Origin: Clostridium sp.
Lineage (GTDB): Bacteria > Bacillota > Clostridia > Clostridiales > Clostridiaceae
Direction of reading: 5' to 3'
Assembly: GCA_015058375.1 (NCBI GenBank)
Contig: SVCK01000116.1
Span: 1 to 44,531, forward strand
Length of the DNA: 44,531 nt
The position numbers were made by a program, and so were the translations under genes. Positions 1,886 through 42,791 of this stretch are shown here, piece by piece. Each line of letters opens with the position of its first letter. Position 1 is the first letter of the stretch. Under the pieces are notes generated by a model. It saw nothing but the letters and a program-made list of their open reading frames with translations, searched no databases and was not told the origin of the DNA.

Positions 1886-4348
<2,463 letters not shown>

Positions 4349-4362
<14 letters not shown>

Positions 4363-4675
4363 TCAATTTCACTATCCTCTCAACCACTAATTTAACAGCA
4401 TTATATTTCTTGTCTCCAGAAAGTTTTAAAATACTTTCAGAGTCATCCTTACCTTTAGCTAATATTGGCTCAGCAGCCTTATTACCCTCGGCAAGAGCAG
4501 TGTCTAAAATGTCTTTACACTTCTTCTTTGCATTACTTATAGCATCTTCATATTTCTTAGTTGCTTCTGCTGTAGCTGATTGAACTATTTCTCTAGCTTC
4601 AACTGTTGCATTTCTAATCATTTCATCTGCTTCTGCTTCTGCATCCTTGATTTTTTTAATTGCATCTAATGCCAA
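4349..4675 (-). CDS. V-type ATP synthase peripheral stalk subunit (G/H type)
   Basis: This 108-residue protein is the first gene of the ATPase operon. It is one long amphipathic Ala/Glu/Lys helix (IKDAEAEADEMIRNATVEA), as expected for the small stalk partner of subunit E (NtpF in E. hirae, AhaH in archaea). It starts with TTG at 4675, behind an AAAGGTGGTGA ribosome site. There is no ATG in frame near this site. The last codons overlap the start of subunit I. Its identity rests on coiled-coil character, size and operon position rather than on conserved single residues. Confidence 0.85.
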
Positions 4676-4780
4676 AATCTCACCACCTTTATGCCATCTT
4701 CAATTTTTTTATATAAACGAAATAAGAATAAAATAAATAATAATACTTTATATAGTATTTATTACTCTTTATTCTATTTC

Positions 4781-4808
4781 ATTATACACTATTCATATAC
4801 TTTTTCAA
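4781..4808 (-). promoter_or_regulatory. Sigma-A-type promoter of the V-type ATPase operon
   Basis: On the minus strand a TTGAAA -35 (4808-4803) and a perfect TATAAT -10 (4786-4781) are separated by 16 bases. Transcription would start near 4774, giving a leader of about 100 bases before the TTG start at 4675. Confidence 0.6.
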
Positions 4809-5117
4809 CTATTTTATAGCTATTATTCATATTTTTTCAGTCGAAATTTGTTATATTAACTTTTTTTCATAAATTTCGTTACACTTATTCAAAAAACAAA
4901 AAAATTAATATATCATTAAATTTCATACTATTGTAATATTTATCGACTACTTCTTTAATTTTCTTTAATTTTAAAATTTAATATTATACTAATTTAATAT
5001 TATACTATTCGTAATCTTGAGTGAATACAAAATCATTTTAATAATAAAATCTGATATCTTTATTAACTTTAGCAATTTTCACATCATATATACCTAGAAT
5101 ATCTTATTTAAAAATTA
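4809..5117. other. AT-rich intergenic region with a short tandem repeat
   Basis: This non-coding gap lies between the ATPase operon promoter and the methyltransferase-like gene. I see no ORF with a ribosome site. It contains a perfect 16-base unit (AATTTAATATTATACT) repeated twice head to tail at 4975-4990 and 4991-5006. On the minus strand each copy includes a TATAAT hexamer without a good -35. The function is unknown. Confidence 0.5.
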
Positions 5118-5684
5118 CTATGAATATATTTCAAGATTATAACTGTCAATAATACTTTCCTCTTTAGCCTCTTCTTTTTCTACGCTTTTTTTCTTAACAG
5201 CTTTAATAAAAAATATATCTTCCCAAACCTTAGTTTCTTCTATTTGTACATATTTTTGAAGCATTTTTTTAATTTCTTCATATTTACAACTTGATATTAA
5301 ATTATAATTTTTTAATATCAATGTTTTCATATCTCCACCTGGCAAAGCTACATTTATCTTATAGTCTATAATTTTTCCTCTTTCCTTATTAACGTCCCAT
5401 ATATATATTTCACCATTATCTTTTAAATAGTTAATAACCTCTTTTATTACTTTAGCTTTTCTTATTGAGCCAAAAATTTTATTAAGATTAAAAACAAAAG
5501 TACATGCATCATACTTTCTTTCACTTAATACATCCCTATCATCAGAATTAACATAATCAACACATAATTCCTCTTCTACATCCTTTGAAATACTATAAAC
5601 AATGCCTGAATTTTCACTTGATAAATCCAAAATATCTCCTTTAATTTTCACATCATTCATATTAATAAATATAGTTTTTCCCAT
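5118..5684 (-). CDS. SAM methyltransferase-like protein
   Basis: This 188-residue soluble protein looks like a class I methyltransferase fold. It has a GDILDLSSENSGIVY segment in the position of the SAM-binding motif, an acidic strand end, and a FVFNLNKIFGSIRKAKVIKEV stretch resembling motif IV and the following helix. A NYLKDNGEIYIWDV strand resembles motif VI. The usual GxGxG loop is degenerate (DLSSENSG), so activity is uncertain. The last 25 residues are charged and probably disordered. The gene is monocistronic, separated from the upstream gene by a terminator. No substrate can be inferred. Confidence 0.55.
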   Translation of the reverse strand: MGKTIFINMNDVKIKGDILDLSSENSGIVYSISKDVEEELCVDYVNSDDRDVLSERKYDACTFVFNLNKIFGSIRKAKVIKEVINYLKDNGEIYIWDVNKERGKIIDYKINVALPGGDMKTLILKNYNLISSCKYEEIKKMLQKYVQIEETKVWEDIFFIKAVKKKSVEKEEAKEESIIDSYNLEIYS

Positions 5685-5768: not shown

Positions 5769-5792
5769 TGTGTTTGTTTGATAAATACTTTA

Positions 5793-7064
5793 CTACTTTT
5801 TATCTTTTTTTATTAATTTATATAAAACTATTATCAGCAATGTAACTACCAATATAAATATAAAGAAAATAATTATTATTGGTAATTTGAACCCTAAAAC
5901 ATCATTTTTCTTATGAATGCTATAAACGCATCCTGCTTTATTATCAAGAAGGAGGAATTCATTAGAATTATTTATTATATTCTCTATATTACTGTTGCTC
6001 TTAAGCTTTAATATTTCCTTATAAACATTTCCAACTGACAATGTACATATTTTTTCCAATCTACTATCCCAAAATAGAATTGTATCTTTCTCTAGCACTT
6101 TTCCTTTTCTATCCACAGCTATACCTTGTAATGAATCAAGTGAATCACTTTGATAAATAGGGGCAGGAACATTTCTATTTTTAGAATCTTTAAGCAAAGG
6201 TTTTACTATTTCTTCTCCTTTAAATCTTGGAGAATCTATAGGATCTCCTCCACTAAAATCTGGCCATCCATAGCAAATACCCTTTTCTATTTTATATATA
6301 TAGTCTTTATCCCTATTTACAGCCCTTAATCCTTCATTCTTCATACCTGAAAAAATAGCTTCAACTTCACCTTTACTGTTAACTGCAAGTCCCTTTACAC
6401 CTCTTATACCAGTTGAATAAAGCGAAACTTTATTATCTTTCAAATTCAAAGTATATATCGCTGCATTACCTATGTTCGCTGCTGATATCTTTTCTCCATT
6501 TTCAGTTTTGATTCCATATTTTTTATATACTCCTGTAAGCTTGGCTCCATAATTATTACCATTTAAAGTGACTTCTACTGGAGATATATCTTGATAATCA
6601 CCTTCTGAAATTCCTGAATTTGTTCTTGCTCCAACAGCAATATAAAGAGTATCTCTATCTATAGCCAATCTCCTTTTTAAGTTATTTCCAGACAAAGGAA
6701 CATTACCACATAGCATTTCTAAAGAATTATCTAATAAAGAAAATTTATAAATTCCATCATTTGAAATATATATAAGACTGTCATAATAATAAACCATATC
6801 CTCTATATCAATAGATTTATCCTTATACATCACCTTTTCTTTTCCTTCTTTGTCTATACTCTTTATGTAATCTGAAAAAGCAATATAAATATTCTCATCA
6901 TCATCTGTTGCTATAGCTTTCGCATCTTCACACCCTTTAACTACAATAGTACAATCTATATTATTTTTTAAGATATCTAAATCATATTTATTGGAAAGCC
7001 TATATAATGAAAAGGCACCAATAAGTATCACCATCAAAACTATTATTACATTTATTTTTTTCAT
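5793..7064 (-). CDS. Membrane-tethered beta-propeller protein, sorbosone/glucose dehydrogenase-like
   Basis: This 423-residue protein has an N-terminal membrane anchor (about 5-21), a large extracytoplasmic region and a C-terminal membrane helix (about 392-416) with a Lys-rich tail. The repeats (IATDDDENIYIAFSD, RRLAIDRDTLYIAVGAR, KGLAVNSKGEVEAIF, QGIAVDRKGKVLEKD) are propeller blades. YGWPDFSGGDP at 265-275 matches the YGWP region typical of PQQ-dependent glucose/sorbosone dehydrogenase-type propellers. I cannot confirm a PQQ site, and clostridia usually lack PQQ, so a non-enzymatic sensor or binding role is equally likely. A GGGGAAAG ribosome site precedes the ATG. Confidence 0.65.
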   Translation of the reverse strand: MKKINVIIVLMVILIGAFSLYRLSNKYDLDILKNNIDCTIVVKGCEDAKAIATDDDENIYIAFSDYIKSIDKEGKEKVMYKDKSIDIEDMVYYYDSLIYISNDGIYKFSLLDNSLEMLCGNVPLSGNNLKRRLAIDRDTLYIAVGARTNSGISEGDYQDISPVEVTLNGNNYGAKLTGVYKKYGIKTENGEKISAANIGNAAIYTLNLKDNKVSLYSTGIRGVKGLAVNSKGEVEAIFSGMKNEGLRAVNRDKDYIYKIEKGICYGWPDFSGGDPIDSPRFKGEEIVKPLLKDSKNRNVPAPIYQSDSLDSLQGIAVDRKGKVLEKDTILFWDSRLEKICTLSVGNVYKEILKLKSNSNIENIINNSNEFLLLDNKAGCVYSIHKKNDVLGFKLPIIIIFFIFILVVTLLIIVLYKLIKKDKK

Positions 7065-7126
7065 AACTTTCCCCTTTTTATTTCTTTACCTAATTTATAT
7101 TTTTTTAAGCAATAATTTAGACCTCC

Positions 7127-7154
7127 TTGAAAATAAACTTAACAATGATATACT
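7127..7154 (+). promoter_or_regulatory. Promoter of the M29 aminopeptidase gene
   Basis: TTGAAA (7127-7132) and TATACT (7149-7154) are separated by 16 bases. The AAGGAGGA ribosome site follows at 7172-7179 and the ATG is at 7187, giving a short leader of about 25 bases. Confidence 0.65.
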
Positions 7155-7186
7155 ATACATATTAAAATTCTAAGGAGGAAAATTAT

Positions 7187-8302
7187 ATGAAAGATGTAAG
7201 ATTTACTCAACTAGCCAAGAATTTAATTAATTATTCATGTAATTTAAAAGAAGGCGAAAAAATTCTTATTGAAGGATATGGAGACTGTAAGCCATTAATT
7301 AAGGAATTAATTAATGAAGCTTATAAAGTTAAAGCAATTCCTTTTGTAACTTTAAAAGACAATGAAATTAATAGAGAACTTTTTATGGGCATGTCAAAAG
7401 AACAACTTGATTTGATGGCTAAGTATGAAGCAGAAAGAATGAATGATATGGATGCTTATATAGGTATTAGAGCTAACAGCAATTCAGCTGAAACTTCTGA
7501 TGTTCCTTCTGAAAAGCTATCACTTCACAGTAGATATTTTTCTGAACCTGTTCATGGAAAAATAAGAGTTCCTCATACAAAATGGGTTATTTTAAGATAT
7601 CCTAATTACTCTATGGCACAAGCTGCTAATATGAGTACTGATGCTTTTGAAGATTATTACTTCAATGTATGTAACTTAGATTATTCTAAGATGTCAAAGG
7701 CTATGGATAAATTAGTAGACTTAATGAACAAAACAGATAAAGTAAGATTAACTGCAAAAGGTACAGATTTAACTTTTTCTATAAAAGATATTCCTGCAAT
7801 CAAATGCGCTGGAGAAATGAATATTCCTGATGGAGAAGTATATTCAGCACCTGTTAAGAATTCTATAAATGGTACTATTACTTATAACACCCCATCACTT
7901 AAAGATGGTTTCACTTATGAAAATATAAAACTTACTTTCAAAGATGGTAAGATTATTGAAGCAACAGCTAATGATACTGAAAAAATAAATGCTATTTTTG
8001 ACATGGATGAAGGAGCAAGATATGTAGGCGAATTTGCTATTGGTGTAAATCCTTATATACTTTACCCTATGAAAGATACTTTGTTTGATGAAAAAATAGC
8101 AGGTTCAATTCACTTCACACCTGGATGTTGCTATGATGATGCTTATAACGGAAATCAATCTGCCCTTCACTGGGATCTTGTTCTAATTCAAAGACCTGAA
8201 TATGGTGGAGGAGAAATTTACTTTGATGATGTTCTTATAAGAAAAGACGGTTTATTTGTTCTTGATGAATTAAAATGCTTAAATCCTGAAAACTTAAAAT
8301 AA
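7187..8302 (+). CDS. M29 family metallo-aminopeptidase
   Basis: This 371-residue cytoplasmic aminopeptidase removes N-terminal residues from peptides with a two-metal centre. The M29 ligands are visible: Glu217 (in IPDGEVYS), Glu282 (in VGEFAIG), His309 (in GSIHFTPG), His328 and Asp330 (in ALHWDLV). They have the same order and approximate spacing as Glu250, Glu316, His345, His378 and Asp380 of Thermus AmpT/AmpS. The length is somewhat shorter than the usual ~410 but no motif is missing. It is monocistronic, with its own promoter and a hairpin immediately after the stop. It probably acts in general peptide turnover. Confidence 0.9.
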   Translation: MKDVRFTQLAKNLINYSCNLKEGEKILIEGYGDCKPLIKELINEAYKVKAIPFVTLKDNEINRELFMGMSKEQLDLMAKYEAERMNDMDAYIGIRANSNSAETSDVPSEKLSLHSRYFSEPVHGKIRVPHTKWVILRYPNYSMAQAANMSTDAFEDYYFNVCNLDYSKMSKAMDKLVDLMNKTDKVRLTAKGTDLTFSIKDIPAIKCAGEMNIPDGEVYSAPVKNSINGTITYNTPSLKDGFTYENIKLTFKDGKIIEATANDTEKINAIFDMDEGARYVGEFAIGVNPYILYPMKDTLFDEKIAGSIHFTPGCCYDDAYNGNQSALHWDLVLIQRPEYGGGEIYFDDVLIRKDGLFVLDELKCLNPENLK

Positions 8303-8306
8303 TTAA

Positions 8307-8332
8307 AAGGTATGAGATTTTCCTCATACCTT
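8307..8332. terminator. Convergent terminator between aminopeptidase and M50 chimera
   Basis: A perfect 10-base-pair stem, AAGGTATGAG (8307-8316) with CTCATACCTT (8323-8332), has a 6-base loop. The minus strand continues with a T-rich run (TTTAATTATTTT), so it fits termination of the 8388-9539 transcript best. It may serve both directions. Confidence 0.7.
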
Positions 8333-8387
8333 CATCAACCTATATAACATTCTCTCCTCCACATAAAAAACTCATCTTTTTCCAAAC

Positions 8388-9539
8388 TCACATAATCTCA
8401 TCTTTACCTACAAATATTTGAAGTATCAGTTTTATTAAAGCTATTATTGATTTAACCCCTATAAATACAAACAATATCAACAAGACTAAACTCAATAAAT
8501 TTAATTTATTTATTACATTTATATTTGACAATATATACATTACAATTTTAAAAGAAAAAAATATATAAAAAATTATTGATACTAATCCATATAAAAATAT
8601 TGTAATAAGCACATTGTTTTTCCATACTTCTCTCAAATTATTAAAGCTTTCTTTTTTGCCAAATATCCATTTTATACATGATCTAATAACTATAGGGAAT
8701 TTCTTATTTAAATTATAAACGCCTAGTAAATCTGACAAAAACCAATATCCATCATACTTTAAAAATGGGTTCAAATTAAAAATGACTGATGTCATAAACA
8801 TAAAATATAAAATTATAAATACAGGATTATAATTTAAAAAATATATAAATAACAATAAAGTTGAATATACAACTTGAAAATAGACACCACCTAAGTCTAC
8901 TATAACTCGCTGATTCTTTTTTAATTTCCAACTATCATCTACATCAACAAATATAACTGGAGAAATAAAATAAATACCTACACCCAAAGATTTAGGAACA
9001 GATCCATATAACTTTGATGCCGTGATATGCCCTAATTCATGAAAAAACACGCCTAAAGTTCCAATTACTATAGCTATAATATAGTTAATCCCATTAAGGC
9101 TATTTATAGATATACTTTTATAATCCATAAGATTCGTACAAGACATTAAATATATAAAACTAGAAATAGCTACTACTAAATTAATAACACTTATTTTTTT
9201 ATTAAATAAAACAGATAACCTTCCAAGCTTACCTATTACTTTCTCATTTAATAATATAATCTTAAACCACATTCCACCATTTGAGTCTTTTACATTATCC
9301 TCTTCAAGCAATAGCTTTTTATATATAATCTCTTCTTTATCTAAATCTACATATCCTATTCTATTTTCTTTACAGTCAATTTCTTCATAACATGCATATA
9401 TATCTCCATATGCATCAATTACTAACATCCCTTTAGTTGCTCCACAAGCACTTGTTCTTAGTGCTGTTATCTTTTTTTCAACACTTAAAATAGACTTAAC
9501 GTCACTTATCATCCTTCTATACTGAATATTACATTTCAT
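8388..9539 (-). CDS. Chimera: partial radical-SAM SPASM domain plus M50 metalloprotease
   Basis: This 383-residue ORF has two parts. Residues 25-75 look like the first half of a SPASM domain: Cys32, twelve residues, Gly45, four residues, Cys50, then Cys56, matching the C-X9-15-G-X4-C rule for auxiliary Fe-S clusters. No radical-SAM core (CxxxCxxC) precedes it. Residues from about 90 onward are an M50-type intramembrane protease with HELGH (His167, Glu168, His171) and NLNPFLKYDG (Asp263), as in the peptide-maturation M50 proteins of YydH type, with several membrane helices. No ribosome site precedes the ATG at 9539, and the in-frame stop is only 27 bases upstream. This suggests an in-frame deletion that removed most of a maturase gene and fused its tail to the next gene. 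It follows the Cys-rich peptide gene by 62 bases. Confidence 0.75.
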   Translation of the reverse strand: MKCNIQYRRMISDVKSILSVEKKITALRTSACGATKGMLVIDAYGDIYACYEEIDCKENRIGYVDLDKEEIIYKKLLLEEDNVKDSNGGMWFKIILLNEKVIGKLGRLSVLFNKKISVINLVVAISSFIYLMSCTNLMDYKSISINSLNGINYIIAIVIGTLGVFFHELGHITASKLYGSVPKSLGVGIYFISPVIFVDVDDSWKLKKNQRVIVDLGGVYFQVVYSTLLLFIYFLNYNPVFIILYFMFMTSVIFNLNPFLKYDGYWFLSDLLGVYNLNKKFPIVIRSCIKWIFGKKESFNNLREVWKNNVLITIFLYGLVSIIFYIFFSFKIVMYILSNINVINKLNLLSLVLLILFVFIGVKSIIALIKLILQIFVGKDEIM

Positions 9540-9601
9540 ATTTTTTATATTATCTTTAAAAATATTTCATTTTCTTATTTATTCATTTATACTTAACCAA
9601 A

Positions 9602-9763
9602 TCAATTAAAAAAATCTAAAAAGCAACTTACTTCTGAGCATACATCTTCATCACATCCACCATCATCTGAATTACAATTATTCCAAAGACATGAGAATTC
9701 CATCTTCTTTTCTAATAATTCAACTATTTCAGAATAATTTTCGTTTTTCTTAATTTCTTTCAT
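9602..9763 (-). CDS. Cys-rich precursor peptide, candidate RiPP (radical-SAM type)
   Basis: This 53-residue ORF starts with ATG at 9763, eight bases after a strong GGAGGG ribosome site. It starts MKEIKKNENYSEIVELLEKK and ends ...DFFN. The first 22 residues form a charged, helix-prone leader. The core then holds Cys25, Cys30, Cys37, Cys42 and Cys47, that is spacings of 5, 7, 5 and 5 in an Asp/Asn/Gly-rich context (CNSDDGGCDED). Regular cysteines after a leader, next to SPASM and M50 sequences, are the signature of thioether-forming radical-SAM RiPPs (ranthipeptide or sactipeptide type). From memory it resembles clostridial 'Cys-every-fifth' precursors. It has its own promoter and is the first gene of a two-gene unit with the chimeric ORF. 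No function has been shown. Confidence 0.75.
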   Translation of the reverse strand: MKEIKKNENYSEIVELLEKKMEFSCLWNNCNSDDGGCDEDVCSEVSCFLDFFN

Positions 9764-9816
9764 ACTTTTCCCTCCTGATTTTTTCTTAATTATTTACATT
9801 TAACACTTTTATTGTT

Positions 9817-9845
9817 GTTATATTTATATTTTTCATTTTTTGCAA
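9817..9845 (-). promoter_or_regulatory. Promoter of the Cys-rich peptide locus
   Basis: On the minus strand TTGCAA (9845-9840) and TATAAC (9822-9817) are separated by exactly 17 bases. This gives a leader of about 47 bases before the precursor ATG at 9763. Confidence 0.55.
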
Positions 9846-9895
9846 TTTATACTTTTATAGAAGGTTTTTTAATATTAATTATTCAACTATTCTAT

Positions 9896-9922
9896 TTGAC
9901 CACCTCTTTGAATAATTATAAT
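9896..9922 (+). promoter_or_regulatory. Possible promoter of the SpoVB-like gene
   Basis: TTGACC (9896-9901) and TATAAT (9917-9922) are separated by a short 15-base spacer. The spacing is suboptimal and a sporulation sigma factor could be used instead, so this is tentative. Confidence 0.4.
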
Positions 9923-9947
9923 TGTAGAACAAAGGGGTGAACTAACT

Positions 9948-11456
9948 TTGGAAAAAGAGCAAGATAATTTTTTTAAAAATTCATTTTTATTAACGGCATC
10001 TAATGTAACTACAGGCGTTCTAGGATTTATTTTTTCCATATATCTTTCTCACGTCTTAGGACCTGAAGGTATGGGACTATATAACCTTGTAATGCCTATT
10101 TATAACTTATTTATATGTATGATGTCTGCTGGAATCTCTGCGGCTATCTCTAAAATAGCAGCAGTATATAACGAAAAAAATCAACAAAATAACATAACTA
10201 GAACTTTAAAAACTACAGCATGTTTTAACTTTGTATGGGCAATATCAATAGCACTTCTTGTTTTTGTATTTGCGCCTATAATAGGTGAATATGGTATAAG
10301 TGATGTCCGTACTATCGATGCCATAAAAGTTACGTGTCCCGCAATGGTATGTATAGCTTTATCTAATATTTTAAAAGGATACTTTTGGGGAACTTCTAAA
10401 ATTGTAATTCCTTCTATAATTGATATTTTTGAAAAAACTCTAAGAGTTCTAGTAGTGGCAATACTTATTTATCTTTTCTCTGCAAGAGATTTATCTCAAC
10501 TAGTTACTTTATGTTACTTAGCTTTATGTCTTGGTGAATTTCAAAGTTTATCTCTACTTTTTATTTATTATAAATACTGTAAAAAGAAAATTCCTAAGAC
10601 TTTTGAAAAACCAGAAAGAAAATCTCAACTTCTATTTGATGTACTTATTTTATGTTTACCTTTAACTTTAAACGGTTTTTTAAGCAATATATTTAATACA
10701 CTTTCAACTTTAATTATGCCTAGATGTTTAGTAAGCGCAGGATTTTCTCATGTAGAAGCTTTATCTATGATTGGTAAATTCACTGGAATGGCTATGATGA
10801 TTATAGGTATCCCGTTAATTGTTGTAGCATCAATCAATACCTTATTAATTCCTGACTTATCTCAAACTATGAGCAGAGGAAATTATTACAATGCATCTTG
10901 TAGAATTCATAAAGTAATTAAAATTGCTTTCATTTTAGGTTTAGCAACAACGGTAATATGTTTCTTAATTCCTGATAATCTAGGAGAAATACTATATCAA
11001 AGAAATGATTTAGGTAATTATATCAAATATGCAGCACTTTCAGCACCAGTATTTTTTCCTTCAGTAACTATGAATGGTATTTTAAATGGTATCAATAAGC
11101 AGATGATTATATTAAGAAATTCATTAATTATAGCTGTTTTAGAATTAATAGGATTATTTATTTTCACTTCTATACCTTCTATTAATATTTATGGCTATAC
11201 TATAACTCTTCTTTTAACTTCTATAATAAGTATAATCATTAACCTTTATGAAGTTAAAAAGACTATTGATATTAATATTTCAACTACTAATATAATTATA
11301 TACTTACTATTATCTTTACTAGTATTCTTTATTTTTAATTTTATAATTAATAAAATATTAGGTCCTTTATCTCTATTTAAAAATATTATTATAATTATAT
11401 TGATATTTGGAATGTTCACTTTTTTAGGAACTTTAGGTGAAGATAATTACAACTAA
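9948..11456 (+). CDS. spoVB: SpoVB-type polysaccharide/lipid flippase (MOP superfamily)
   Basis: This 502-residue polytopic membrane protein has about 14 helices. The N-terminus (FLLTASNVTTGVLGFIFSIYLSHVLGPEGMGLYNLVMPIY) is the typical start of the SpoVB/MurJ/Wzx group, which flips lipid-linked sugars across the membrane. SpoVB acts in spore cortex synthesis in Bacillus. Translation starts at a TTG (9948) seven bases after AAAGGGGTGA, and no nearby ATG is available. It is convergent with a second, distantly related flippase gene. SpoVB is the best guess among several related paralogues that clostridia carry, so the exact substrate is uncertain. Confidence 0.7.
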   Translation: MEKEQDNFFKNSFLLTASNVTTGVLGFIFSIYLSHVLGPEGMGLYNLVMPIYNLFICMMSAGISAAISKIAAVYNEKNQQNNITRTLKTTACFNFVWAISIALLVFVFAPIIGEYGISDVRTIDAIKVTCPAMVCIALSNILKGYFWGTSKIVIPSIIDIFEKTLRVLVVAILIYLFSARDLSQLVTLCYLALCLGEFQSLSLLFIYYKYCKKKIPKTFEKPERKSQLLFDVLILCLPLTLNGFLSNIFNTLSTLIMPRCLVSAGFSHVEALSMIGKFTGMAMMIIGIPLIVVASINTLLIPDLSQTMSRGNYYNASCRIHKVIKIAFILGLATTVICFLIPDNLGEILYQRNDLGNYIKYAALSAPVFFPSVTMNGILNGINKQMIILRNSLIIAVLELIGLFIFTSIPSINIYGYTITLLLTSIISIIINLYEVKKTIDINISTTNIIIYLLLSLLVFFIFNFIINKILGPLSLFKNIIIIILIFGMFTFLGTLGEDNYN

Positions 11457-11562: not shown

Positions 11563-13173
11563 TTATTTTAATTTAATCCTCATAAATCTAGGAATAAATT
11601 TCATAATCTTAGGCGACACTCCTTGTATATCCTTTCTTCTTATACCACCAATTGCTATCATTACATAAACATAAACAAAAGCTCCTACTGCTACTAATAA
11701 AATTACTATAGGCATAGCTGTAAATCTTGATAATGGCATAAATCTATAAAGGATTTGTAATGGCTGCTTTAATATATATATCATAATTGCCATAGCGAAT
11801 GATGCCAAAATAGGTTTTATAGTCAATCTTACTATTGGCATTCTCATTCTCATTATCGAACATATTTTTTTATGATTTAACACCGCCGGTATTAAATGCC
11901 AAAAGCAATTACCAACAATAACACCATATATATTTATCTCTGGAATAGCTACCAAAACGTAATTGACTAAAATTTTCACTATTATTCCAATAGAGAATGT
12001 TCCAAGAACATAATAAAGTTTATTTATTCCTTGAAGTACTGTACTTTGTATCTGAGTTATAGACATCAATACAAGTATAATAGAACCATAAAGCATTAAA
12101 TCTGATCCTCTATCATAACCATACAAAGCTATATAAACTTCTCTGCTTAATACTGATAACCCTACCGCTGATGGAATTGCTATCATTAAAGCCATCTTCA
12201 ATGCATAACTTATCTTCTGTTTTGCTTCTTTTCTTTCTCTAAGTACTATTGATTTAGCTAATGAAGGTAATACAGTAGTTCCTATTGCTGTTATTAATAC
12301 TAATGGTACGCCATATAATGTCTTATATTTACCCAAAATACCATATAAGGCATTAGCAGCTGCCTCATCAAATCCTGCAACACCTAGTCTTTTTGATACA
12401 TTAAACATATCAACAATGCCCCCAAAATTTTGAAGGCCAGCACTAATAGTTATAGGAATAGAATATCTAATTACTTTAGATAAAATATATTTATTTTTTA
12501 ATTTCTTATCTGTAGTTTTATATTTTCTAGCTTCTTCTCCATAACCACTTTTTTCATAACAATATAAAATATAAAAGCATGCAAATAGAGCTCCTACTGA
12601 TGTACCTATTTGAGCACCAGCATTTCCAAATTCAATGCCACTTTGAACTAATATAAACGCACACAATAAACTTATTACTACATTTAAGAATTGTTCTGCT
12701 ATCTGTGAAATCGCGATTGACGTCATATTGCTCTTTCCTTGCATAAAGCCTCTAACTACTGCCAATACAGAAGTTATAATTATACAAGGTGCTAAAGCTC
12801 TTATTCCTAAGACCACATTTGGCGATTCTGACATAACACTTATCGGTCCTGCAATCAAAAACATTAATGATGAACATACTATACCAACAAATGCATAAAA
12901 TTTACTGGCAACTTTTAATGTTTTTACAGCCCCTCTAGGATTATCAAGTGCTGTATATTCAGCTACTACCTTAGCGACTGCTGGCTGTGCTCCCATACAG
13001 CTTAAAGCATATACAAATAAAAATATTTCTGTTGTCTTAGAATATATTCCATAACCTTCATCTCCCAATATAGATGTAAGAAAGGGAGTATATACTACTG
13101 ACATTACCTTTGCCATCATTCCGGCTAAGGACAGCATAAACATCCCCTTAGCCGCAGAAGTGTTCTCTTTCAT
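11563..13173 (-). CDS. YtgP/MurJ-like polysaccharide flippase (MOP superfamily)
   Basis: This 536-residue protein has about 14 membrane helices and the N-terminal pattern AKGMFMLSLAGMMAKVMSVVYTPFLTSILGDEGYGIYS of the YtgP/SpoVB branch. That branch includes the Firmicute lipid II flippase. Conserved charged residues lie in TM regions, such as RGFMQGKSN near residue 140. It follows the pseudouridine synthase gene by 20 bases and probably shares its transcript. AGGTGA seven bases before the ATG is the likely ribosome site, because the nearer GGAGG is too close. It differs clearly from the convergent SpoVB-like protein, so this is not a recent duplication. Confidence 0.75.
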   Translation of the reverse strand: MKENTSAAKGMFMLSLAGMMAKVMSVVYTPFLTSILGDEGYGIYSKTTEIFLFVYALSCMGAQPAVAKVVAEYTALDNPRGAVKTLKVASKFYAFVGIVCSSLMFLIAGPISVMSESPNVVLGIRALAPCIIITSVLAVVRGFMQGKSNMTSIAISQIAEQFLNVVISLLCAFILVQSGIEFGNAGAQIGTSVGALFACFYILYCYEKSGYGEEARKYKTTDKKLKNKYILSKVIRYSIPITISAGLQNFGGIVDMFNVSKRLGVAGFDEAAANALYGILGKYKTLYGVPLVLITAIGTTVLPSLAKSIVLRERKEAKQKISYALKMALMIAIPSAVGLSVLSREVYIALYGYDRGSDLMLYGSIILVLMSITQIQSTVLQGINKLYYVLGTFSIGIIVKILVNYVLVAIPEINIYGVIVGNCFWHLIPAVLNHKKICSIMRMRMPIVRLTIKPILASFAMAIMIYILKQPLQILYRFMPLSRFTAMPIVILLVAVGAFVYVYVMIAIGGIRRKDIQGVSPKIMKFIPRFMRIKLK

Positions 13174-40421: not shown

Positions 40422-42791
40422 CTATTCACTTACAAGATCTTTTGCACTTAGTTTTGATAAGTTATAGCAACTTAATACTACTGATAACATAATACTTAAA
40501 GTGAAGACAATTAATGAAAATACTATAAATTTCACATCATTACTTAGTGTAAAATTATTAATACCTACAAACTTCATAGTCATCGCCATAATTGAATTTT
40601 GCGATAATAAATCAGACACAACACCTATAATTATCGCAATTGCTAATAGTATGGATATTCTAGTCAAATAAATATCCTGTATTTGTTTCTTTCTAAATCC
40701 TAATGTCTTGTAAATTCCAAGTTCCTTCATATTTGAATTGATATTTATTGTATTGATATTCATAATACATATACATGCAACCAAAATGAAACTTATTATT
40801 ATAACATTCATAACAATATCTATAGGTCCAAAGTTTTCCTTAACTGCATTCTTCAAGAATTGATTTGATCCATCTACAGTAAATGAATCACCATATTCAT
40901 CTTTATAATCAGAAACAATTTTATCAACTTCTGTACTATCTTTAGCTATGATACTTATTTGCTTTATTGCTTTATATGCAAAAGTTTTATCATATTCTGA
41001 TATTGTATCTGATGGTATTATTAATATTTTACCAAAGTTAACTGCACATTCATATTTTCCAACTATCTTCATATCAACTTTTTTACCACCGATATAAAGT
41101 GTCCAGTTATCGCCAACATCCTTATTATATTTTTTAGCAAGTACAGCAGAAATCGTAACTTCTTCTTTATTCTCAGCTAATCTTCCCTCTATTACTGACA
41201 TACCTATATCAGATAAATCTTTATCATATGACAATGTTAACATTGGTTGTGATGGATTATCATCATCTTTTGGTACAATTACACCTCTATATGACTTCAT
41301 AACAGTAGCAGAGTCAATCCTGCTATCATTAGCTATTTTATCTGCTATTTTTTTTGCTTCTTCACTATTCATAGTTTCTTTTGGTTCTAAAGAAATATCA
41401 CAATTTTCAAGTCCCCATTGCTGTGAATACTTCTCCATATTACCCATTGCAAACTTTGCATTTATTGAAAATACTATAATGAATATTGATACAGCCATAA
41501 TAATAATAAGTAAAATTGACTGTCCTGCATTTGCAAATATATTTTTTAATCCTAAAATCCAAGTAACTCCTAAATGACGGAACTTATCTATTGGAAGTCC
41601 TTTCTTTGTCTTATTTACATTTTTAACTTTGCTCATTCTAATAGCTTCTGTTGGTGAAATTTTAGAAACTTTTCTAGTTGCAATATAAGTAGCTAAAGCT
41701 ATAAATACTTCTATAGTTCCTATACTTATTAATATTGTTGAAACTATTGGTATTGATACTTTTACAAATCCAAGACTTAAAAAGTATGCCTGTAAAAGTT
41801 CTTTTGAAACTACACATCCTAGCAAGCCTCCAACGACACTTGATATAAAACCAATAATTAAGAATTGTAATATATATATTCCTGAAACCTGATTCTTTTT
41901 TAGACCAAGTGACTCAAAAATTCCAATATTTTTGTATTCATTATAGATAGTATTTATTATTGTCATAATAATTACCATTAGTACAAAGAATATTATAGAT
42001 CCTGATATTCCCAATAAGATTCCGCCCATCATTTTATATGAAATCAAACTATTACTTTTTAGAGTATCATATCGATAAGAATATCCATTTACAGGTCTAC
42101 CAAAATCATTTTCAACATCAAGTTCAGTGCTCTCTGCTTTATCTTCATCTTTGTATGTCAATGTTACGACATTATATAGATTTCCTTCTGAAACCACGTC
42201 TTCTAAGCTTCCATCTTTAACCCACATTCTGCATACACCACAGCCTGCTTGTCCCATACTAGGATCTACTATAAGCGCACTAACTTCATATTTATATTCT
42301 TTATCTTCAATATTAAAAGTTATATAATCTCCAATTTTAATATCATTAGAATCAGCAACATCACTTGATATCCATACTTCACGATCACCAGGTTCACTAG
42401 CATCACTGCCTTTTAATACCTGAATCTTATCAATGTCTGAATCCTGCGAATATTCTTCCATGATATAAAACTGTTTCATTTTCTTACCATCGACTAATGC
42501 ATTGTCATCATTATAAAATCCATGCTGTTTTTGAATATCTTTAACATTATCATTGTTATTATAAACATCGATAATTTTATCAACGTCTTCTGCATTTGTT
42601 TTTGCTAATATTAAATTATCAAAACCATTCAAATTGTTGTGTGTTTCTTTATATGGCTTATCTAGACTAACAAGAAGATTAATAGATGCAGCTAATAATA
42701 AACTTGCTATTGCTAGAATAATACCTACTAGTGCAGTCTGTACCTTTTTATATTTCATTTTTTTTCTTATTATTAATCTAATTGCTCTCAT
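40422..42791 (-). CDS. FtsX-type ABC transporter permease (MacB/BceB-like)
   Basis: This is a 789-residue permease with the layout TM, large extracytoplasmic domain, three TM, TM, second extracytoplasmic domain, three TM. Both FtsX-like core domains (about 250-380 and 660-785) are present. Proteins of this class use ATP to extrude or sense peptides and lipoproteins. The first extracytoplasmic domain contains a CxxC motif, Cys184-Gly-Val-Cys187, unusual for the family. The ATG abuts the stop of the ATPase gene, so translation is coupled. No adjacent histidine kinase is seen, which argues against a bacitracin-type system. Confidence 0.88.
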   Translation of the reverse strand: MRAIRLIIRKKMKYKKVQTALVGIILAIASLLLAASINLLVSLDKPYKETHNNLNGFDNLILAKTNAEDVDKIIDVYNNNDNVKDIQKQHGFYNDDNALVDGKKMKQFYIMEEYSQDSDIDKIQVLKGSDASEPGDREVWISSDVADSNDIKIGDYITFNIEDKEYKYEVSALIVDPSMGQAGCGVCRMWVKDGSLEDVVSEGNLYNVVTLTYKDEDKAESTELDVENDFGRPVNGYSYRYDTLKSNSLISYKMMGGILLGISGSIIFFVLMVIIMTIINTIYNEYKNIGIFESLGLKKNQVSGIYILQFLIIGFISSVVGGLLGCVVSKELLQAYFLSLGFVKVSIPIVSTILISIGTIEVFIALATYIATRKVSKISPTEAIRMSKVKNVNKTKKGLPIDKFRHLGVTWILGLKNIFANAGQSILLIIIMAVSIFIIVFSINAKFAMGNMEKYSQQWGLENCDISLEPKETMNSEEAKKIADKIANDSRIDSATVMKSYRGVIVPKDDDNPSQPMLTLSYDKDLSDIGMSVIEGRLAENKEEVTISAVLAKKYNKDVGDNWTLYIGGKKVDMKIVGKYECAVNFGKILIIPSDTISEYDKTFAYKAIKQISIIAKDSTEVDKIVSDYKDEYGDSFTVDGSNQFLKNAVKENFGPIDIVMNVIIISFILVACICIMNINTININSNMKELGIYKTLGFRKKQIQDIYLTRISILLAIAIIIGVVSDLLSQNSIMAMTMKFVGINNFTLSNDVKFIVFSLIVFTLSIMLSVVLSCYNLSKLSAKDLVSE

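Follow-up and report, generated by a model that had tools for sequence, protein, structure and literature searches.

The window analyzed here, a 44,531-nucleotide stretch of a Clostridium sp. contig (C108) from a draft assembly of 175 contigs that is 83.6% complete, carries on its minus strand an ATG-initiated precursor peptide gene (9602–9763). The encoded 53-residue peptide, MKEIKKNENYSEIVELLEKKMEFSCLWNNCNSDDGGCDEDVCSEVSCFLDFFN, has a charged leader and a Cys-rich C-terminal core, in which cysteines at positions 25, 30, 37, 42 and 47 form the pattern C-x4-C-x6-C-x4-C-x4-C, and a strong Shine-Dalgarno sequence, AGGAGGG (9770–9776, minus strand), lies 6 nt ahead of the start codon. An earlier note on this DNA, made from the letters and ORF translations, had described this peptide and its ribosome site, and both stand; the cysteine spacing that it called even holds at three steps but not at the other (5, 7, 5, 5). 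The promoter that it also described was not recovered: a scan for sigma-70-type sites, with 11 hits in 8250–10000 against a mean of 14.2 after shuffling, gave none on the minus strand upstream of 9763, and by eye we saw nothing better upstream of the gene than a weak TTGCAA-17-TATAAC. That 53 codons are too few for most gene callers, as was also held, is doubtful.

When the window was replaced by first-order Markov sequence (60 copies), no ORF of 35–80 codons with at least five cysteines and a 5-nt Shine-Dalgarno match arose, while the real window contains two, the precursor gene and an ORF at 41562. As the latter passes as well, the Markov null is imperfect, and it is homology, beyond this test, that decides that the precursor gene is real. 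The ORF at 41562 (minus strand; 40 codons, TTG start, five cysteines, Shine-Dalgarno match) lies in another frame of an FtsX-type permease gene and probably arose by chance.

Upstream of the precursor gene lies a divergent SpoVB-type gene (9948–11456, plus strand), and a convergent M29-type peptidase gene (7187–8302, plus strand) lies downstream of the second minus-strand ORF. Between these two genes, the minus strand carries the precursor gene and an ORF of 383 codons (8388–9539), after whose stop codon there is a terminator-like stem of 12 pairs (8306–8333, minus strand). As the earlier note had it, SPASM and M50 coding sequences adjoin the precursor gene: in this next same-strand ORF, residues ~304–389 of a radical-SAM (rSAM)/SPASM maturase are joined in frame to an M50 metalloprotease that begins at residue ~83. 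These residue numbers refer to the best relative, the locus of a genome from another genus of the same family (G096), in which the rSAM enzyme (454 residues) and the M50 protease (386 residues) are encoded by separate genes that overlap by one base.

The maturase remnant (9312–9569, minus strand) matches residues 304–389 of the G096 enzyme and keeps the first half of the SPASM domain (positions 1–41 of 93). Its upstream edge is an in-frame TGA (9567–9569), downstream of which the ATG of the fused ORF (9537–9539) has no Shine-Dalgarno sequence; among the in-frame starts within the first 90 codons, Shine-Dalgarno-like matches are 3–4 bases long, and those of 4 bases abut the start. The maturase match reaches upstream of this ATG, with residue 304 falling at the TGA in the genome search and residue 309 at 9554 by tblastn. 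Within the fused ORF, residues 4–76 align to rSAM residues 317–389 (45%), and from residue 79 onward the ORF aligns to M50 residues 83–376 (43%). By alignment and ORF coordinates, the junction between the two parts (9306–9311, minus strand) consists of two codons, against 443 nt in G096; these 443 nt encode the C-terminal, Cys-rich half of the SPASM domain and the first 82 codons of the M50 gene. The M50 part (8388–9305, minus strand), which lacks these N-terminal ~82 residues, contains the HELGH and NPFLKYDG motifs. Also gone are the ~303 N-terminal residues of the maturase, including the entire radical-SAM domain match (PF04055; residues 97–266 in G096). Consistent with this, no PF04055 match was found on C108 at E ≤ 0.01, so that a complete maturase in cis is absent and the maturase is, as the earlier note proposed, reduced to a fragment.

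A search with the single window peptide against 194 genomes of the family gave matches at E ≤ 1 in 61, of which two, the source genome itself and G096, matched at E ≤ 0.001. The best homologue, in G096 (E 1.7e-7, 40% identity), has cysteines at 24, 29, 42 and 47; a second G096 copy (E 0.0025) has them at 32, 37, 44 and 49, with a further one at 6 (positions counted by eye), and its spacing, C-x4-C-x6-C-x4-C, is that of the window peptide. The matches in the 59 other genomes (best E 0.014 to 1) were taken as chance. A profile was built from nine rows (one from the window, four from G096 and four from a third genome, G015), and at E ≤ 0.001 it matched three of 206 family genomes and three of 225 genomes of the order. 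Since these three genomes are those that supplied the rows, the precursor type is rare, and the profile shows no new members. Neither plasmids nor phages gave a precursor match at E ≤ 1, and no plasmid matched the window DNA.

Both G096 precursors share their locus with the rSAM/SPASM enzyme and the M50 protease. Furthermore, two more relatives, G038 and G148, each have a 51-residue precursor-like ORF, with a leader ending in EELEKREEY or ELLENREEY, ahead of an rSAM gene and an M50 gene in that order; these two are assigned by position and leader pattern, the profile having missed both at E ≤ 0.001. Homologues with conserved cysteines thus exist within the family beside rSAM/SPASM and M50 genes, and it was the absence of such homologues that the earlier note had named as speaking against its proposal. 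The leader of the window precursor is shared with homologues that adjoin rSAM genes, which is a general mark of rSAM RiPP loci, and the loci of the homologues bear out a RiPP-like, Cys-rich precursor of an rSAM/SPASM and M50 RiPP-type locus. The M50 starts of G096 and G038 have no clear Shine-Dalgarno sequence; they overlap the rSAM stop codon or sit two bases past it, which perhaps accounts for the missing site. The N-terminus of the M50 protein, the part missing from the window, is weakly PqqD-like in G015 (E 0.01) and weakly PaaA-like in G038 (E 0.007), both below cut-off. Against solved structures in the PDB this region gave nothing significant, and as PqqD chains (E 0.23 and 1.1) score no better there than S100 proteins (0.16–0.23), an RRE-like label for it is weak.

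Downstream of the two G096 precursors nearest the window peptide (L035, 7262–9791) come a gene of the FMN-dependent dehydrogenase type, which by eye resembles an IPP isomerase, and one for a 277-residue protein that matches polyprenyl synthase below cut-off. The tryptophan in the CAWNTC and CLWNNC motifs of the G096 precursors recalls prenylated ComX.

No Pfam or NCBIfam model matched the window precursor at E ≤ 1, and six of the ten precursors from the relatives, searched against NCBIfam, gave nothing at E ≤ 0.1 (five) or E ≤ 0.01 (one). The scan of the relatives' rSAM enzymes covered those of G096, G015, G038 and G057, with G008 and G148 left out. The top model was CefB (NF038107) for G096 and G038 and TIGR04463 for G015 and G057, with PapB (NF047865) close behind, all far from their cut-offs: CefB scored 126.7 bits for G096 and 163.3 for G038 against a cut-off of 600, and for G096 TIGR04463 scored 125 of 525 and PapB 113.7 of 340. 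The window fragment reached 28.4 of the 340 bits required for a PapB-type assignment (profile positions 223–296 of 330) and had no match to NF038107 at E ≤ 1. General models were reached, namely PF04055 (G096, G038), TIGR04085 (G096, G015, G057) and PF02163 (G038), whereas none of the family-specific NCBIfam models listed was reached by the relatives' enzymes. The window locus and its relatives resemble the CefB, TIGR04463 and PapB systems in that a SPASM-type rSAM enzyme accompanies precursors that are short, Cys-rich and acidic in the leader, but the relatives lie far under the cut-offs of these systems and the window retains only a C-terminal maturase fragment. Of the likeness to clostridial "Cys-every-fifth" precursors drawn by the earlier note, distant kinship at most survives: CefB is the top model for two of the enzymes, but far below cut-off, and no model recognizes the window precursor.

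For the M50 proteins scanned, the best models were those of daptide or epipeptide proteases, again below cut-off. The daptide protease model (NF041824; mpaP) is the top one for the window ORF (E 2.6e-32; 112.4 bits, cut-off 300), yet we know of no daptide locus that contains an rSAM enzyme. Epipeptide loci (YydH/LiaK/EpeP) do pair an M50 membrane protease with an rSAM enzyme, and NF058609 matches the window ORF at E 1.1e-16, although at 61.3 bits against a cut-off of 225. Epipeptide chemistry is epimerization, without links to cysteine, and the epipeptide EpeX is rSAM-modified. In titles and abstract openings, with most subscription papers outside our reach, we recognized no description of this precursor/rSAM/M50 family. 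Judged from these comparisons, the locus is filed as a putative decayed Cys-rich rSAM/SPASM RiPP locus with an M50 protease, and we do not give it the narrower label of ranthipeptide, of sactipeptide or of Cys-every-fifth system. The first two, to which the earlier note likened the locus, are defined by thioethers from the cysteine sulfur to a non-alpha carbon (ranthipeptides) or to an alpha carbon (sactipeptides), and either would be a candidate chemistry at most.

Among 206 family genomes, the fusion was seen only in the window. At E ≤ 1e-6 the fused ORF matched 20 places in 15 of these genomes, and both of its parts were covered only at the window's own; of the other 19 places, none with the fusion, 17 matched the M50 part (from query residue 70 to 127) and two nothing but the rSAM part. 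Within the genus, 11 of 68 genomes matched at E ≤ 0.001. Among plasmids, 73 records matched, none over more than 80% of the ORF; the 20 records listed all match in the M50 part, and three of them are annotated mpaP. The M50 part keeps 19 of the 20 positions that are invariant across six relatives, while leave-one-out controls on these six kept from 19 of 19 down to 19 of 26. The maturase remnant keeps three of the four positions invariant in five relatives, and eight of the 11 conserved in four of the five. The loss looks recent, since the fused ORF is open over 383 codons; the retention of the M50 positions indicates either a recent loss or an M50 part that is still under selection.

We consider that the locus is probably a Cys-rich rSAM RiPP operon that decayed not long ago and still has an intact precursor gene. 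The original operon would have comprised the precursor, then the rSAM/SPASM maturase, then the M50 membrane protease. From what is known of the families, the enzymes of the intact relatives would recognize the leader, the rSAM enzyme would link up residues of the Cys-rich core, and cleavage of the peptide, perhaps with some help in its export, would fall to the M50 protease. In the window, the alignment shows that the ~303 N-terminal maturase residues with the radical-SAM domain are missing and that a second gap takes out the Cys-rich SPASM half and the M50 N-terminus, fusing the remnants in frame. As the M50 start is tied to the rSAM stop in G096 and G038, loss of the rSAM start may also have silenced the M50 gene. 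The precursor, with its good ribosome site, has no maturase in cis, and most likely the peptide is produced without modification or no longer serves its function. The combination of precursor and maturase fragment, which the earlier note offered as new, is better explained by decay than by a novel architecture. Three observations speak against decay: 383 stop-free codons and 19 of 20 M50 invariants are more than an older relic should have kept, the fragmented and incomplete assembly may have lost or mis-joined sequence, and the M50 starts of G096 and G038 likewise lack a clear Shine-Dalgarno sequence.

The state of the assembly also leaves some room for an artefact, in which an intact precursor–rSAM–M50 operon was mis-joined at 9306–9311 and near 9570. 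We think this unlikely, as it needs two separate mis-joins, one of them in frame, and no other contig holds the missing rSAM parts at better than E 1.6e-5 with the G096 enzyme as query. It is slightly less likely that the locus is a reduced but working system, in which the Cys-rich peptide stays unmodified, disulfides perhaps holding it in shape, and needs no processing enzyme other than the M50 part. The intact precursor with its strong Shine-Dalgarno sequence and the retained M50 motifs and invariant positions would fit such a system, and a shared transcript is plausible, as the stem at 8333–8306 is the first terminator-like site on this strand after the precursor. A review reports that the M50 protease EpeP suffices for production of the epipeptide EpeX, although deletion of epeP did not wholly abolish production (PMC10885120). 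However, the N-terminal region, weakly RRE-like in the M50 proteins of relatives, is gone from the M50 part, a clear Shine-Dalgarno sequence is missing ahead of the fused ORF, and the fusion occurs in one of 206 family genomes. That the maturase was shed to leave a two-part unit of unmodified Cys-rich peptide and M50 protease fused to a maturase scrap, which now acts in peptide signaling or as a bacteriocin, seems quite improbable.

Slightly more improbable still is that a different rSAM enzyme encoded in this genome modifies the precursor in trans. At E ≤ 0.01 the source genome gave 27 matches to PF04055, of which 25 exceed the cut-off, and eight TIGR04085 (SPASM) matches, of which six others are over cut-off and the window's own is below. 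With the G096 enzyme as query, however, only three other places matched at E ≤ 0.01 (1.6e-5, 5.5e-4 and 0.0049), so that no close maturase was found elsewhere in the 83.6% of the genome that is represented. One contig (C92) carries, at its edge, a piece of a SCIFF-maturase/ScfB-related protein. Another (C128; L083, 4032–6578, near the contig end) carries an rSAM gene with an adjoining M50 gene and no precursor seen beside the pair, which would suit an enzyme acting in trans. Conversely, at E ≤ 1e-40 this enzyme occurs in three of 67 genus genomes, its own, G057 (contig C203, 83%) and G038 (contig C2, 46%), and beside the G038 enzyme lie two 39-residue precursors of another type. Homologues of these are present in the source genome on contig C55 (12721, E 3.7e-8, and 12868, weak at E 0.41; span 12721–12942) and in G057 on the contig of the enzyme itself, and the C128 pair appears to have precursors of its own. 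G057, moreover, has the enzyme and no window-like precursor by profile, not being one of the three matched among 206 genomes. Maturation in trans therefore looks unlikely, with some 16% of the genome missing.

The source genome also holds a separate candidate RiPP locus on contig C95 (L084, 4333–7807), with an rSAM/SPASM gene (4333–5661, minus strand), a 52-residue ORF with three cysteines near its C-terminus (5787–5945, minus strand) and a divergent gene, ABC transporter-like by eye (6089–7807, plus strand).

Taken as a decayed operon, the window locus draws attention to a small family in which Cys-rich precursors are partnered by rSAM/SPASM and M50 proteins and match no precursor model tried, and it would be one member caught soon after loss of its maturase. 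The intact loci of G096, G015, G038 and G148 are the better targets for the chemistry, and the window locus serves as a warning that an intact precursor need not mean a working pathway.

Other types of rSAM and M50 loci were seen as well. Two loci (L037, 5885–15079; L039, 7982–13480) place such genes beside that of a 668- or 671-residue protein, whose match to a squalene-hopene cyclase domain exceeds the cut-off in L039 but not in L037 and whose polyprenyl synthase match is below cut-off. In L037 there is, in addition, an evident polyprenyl synthase gene; by eye, each locus also contains IPP-isomerase/Nudix-like genes, and possibly the two are terpenoid-peptide loci. Two further, related loci (L125, 5857–8659; L126, 5227–8290) combine genes of rSAM type and genes matching M50 with short precursors whose cores, at the end of the peptide, are of the FGFGCPHGWFG type, one copy in L125 and two in L126, of which one reads FGFACPHGWFG.
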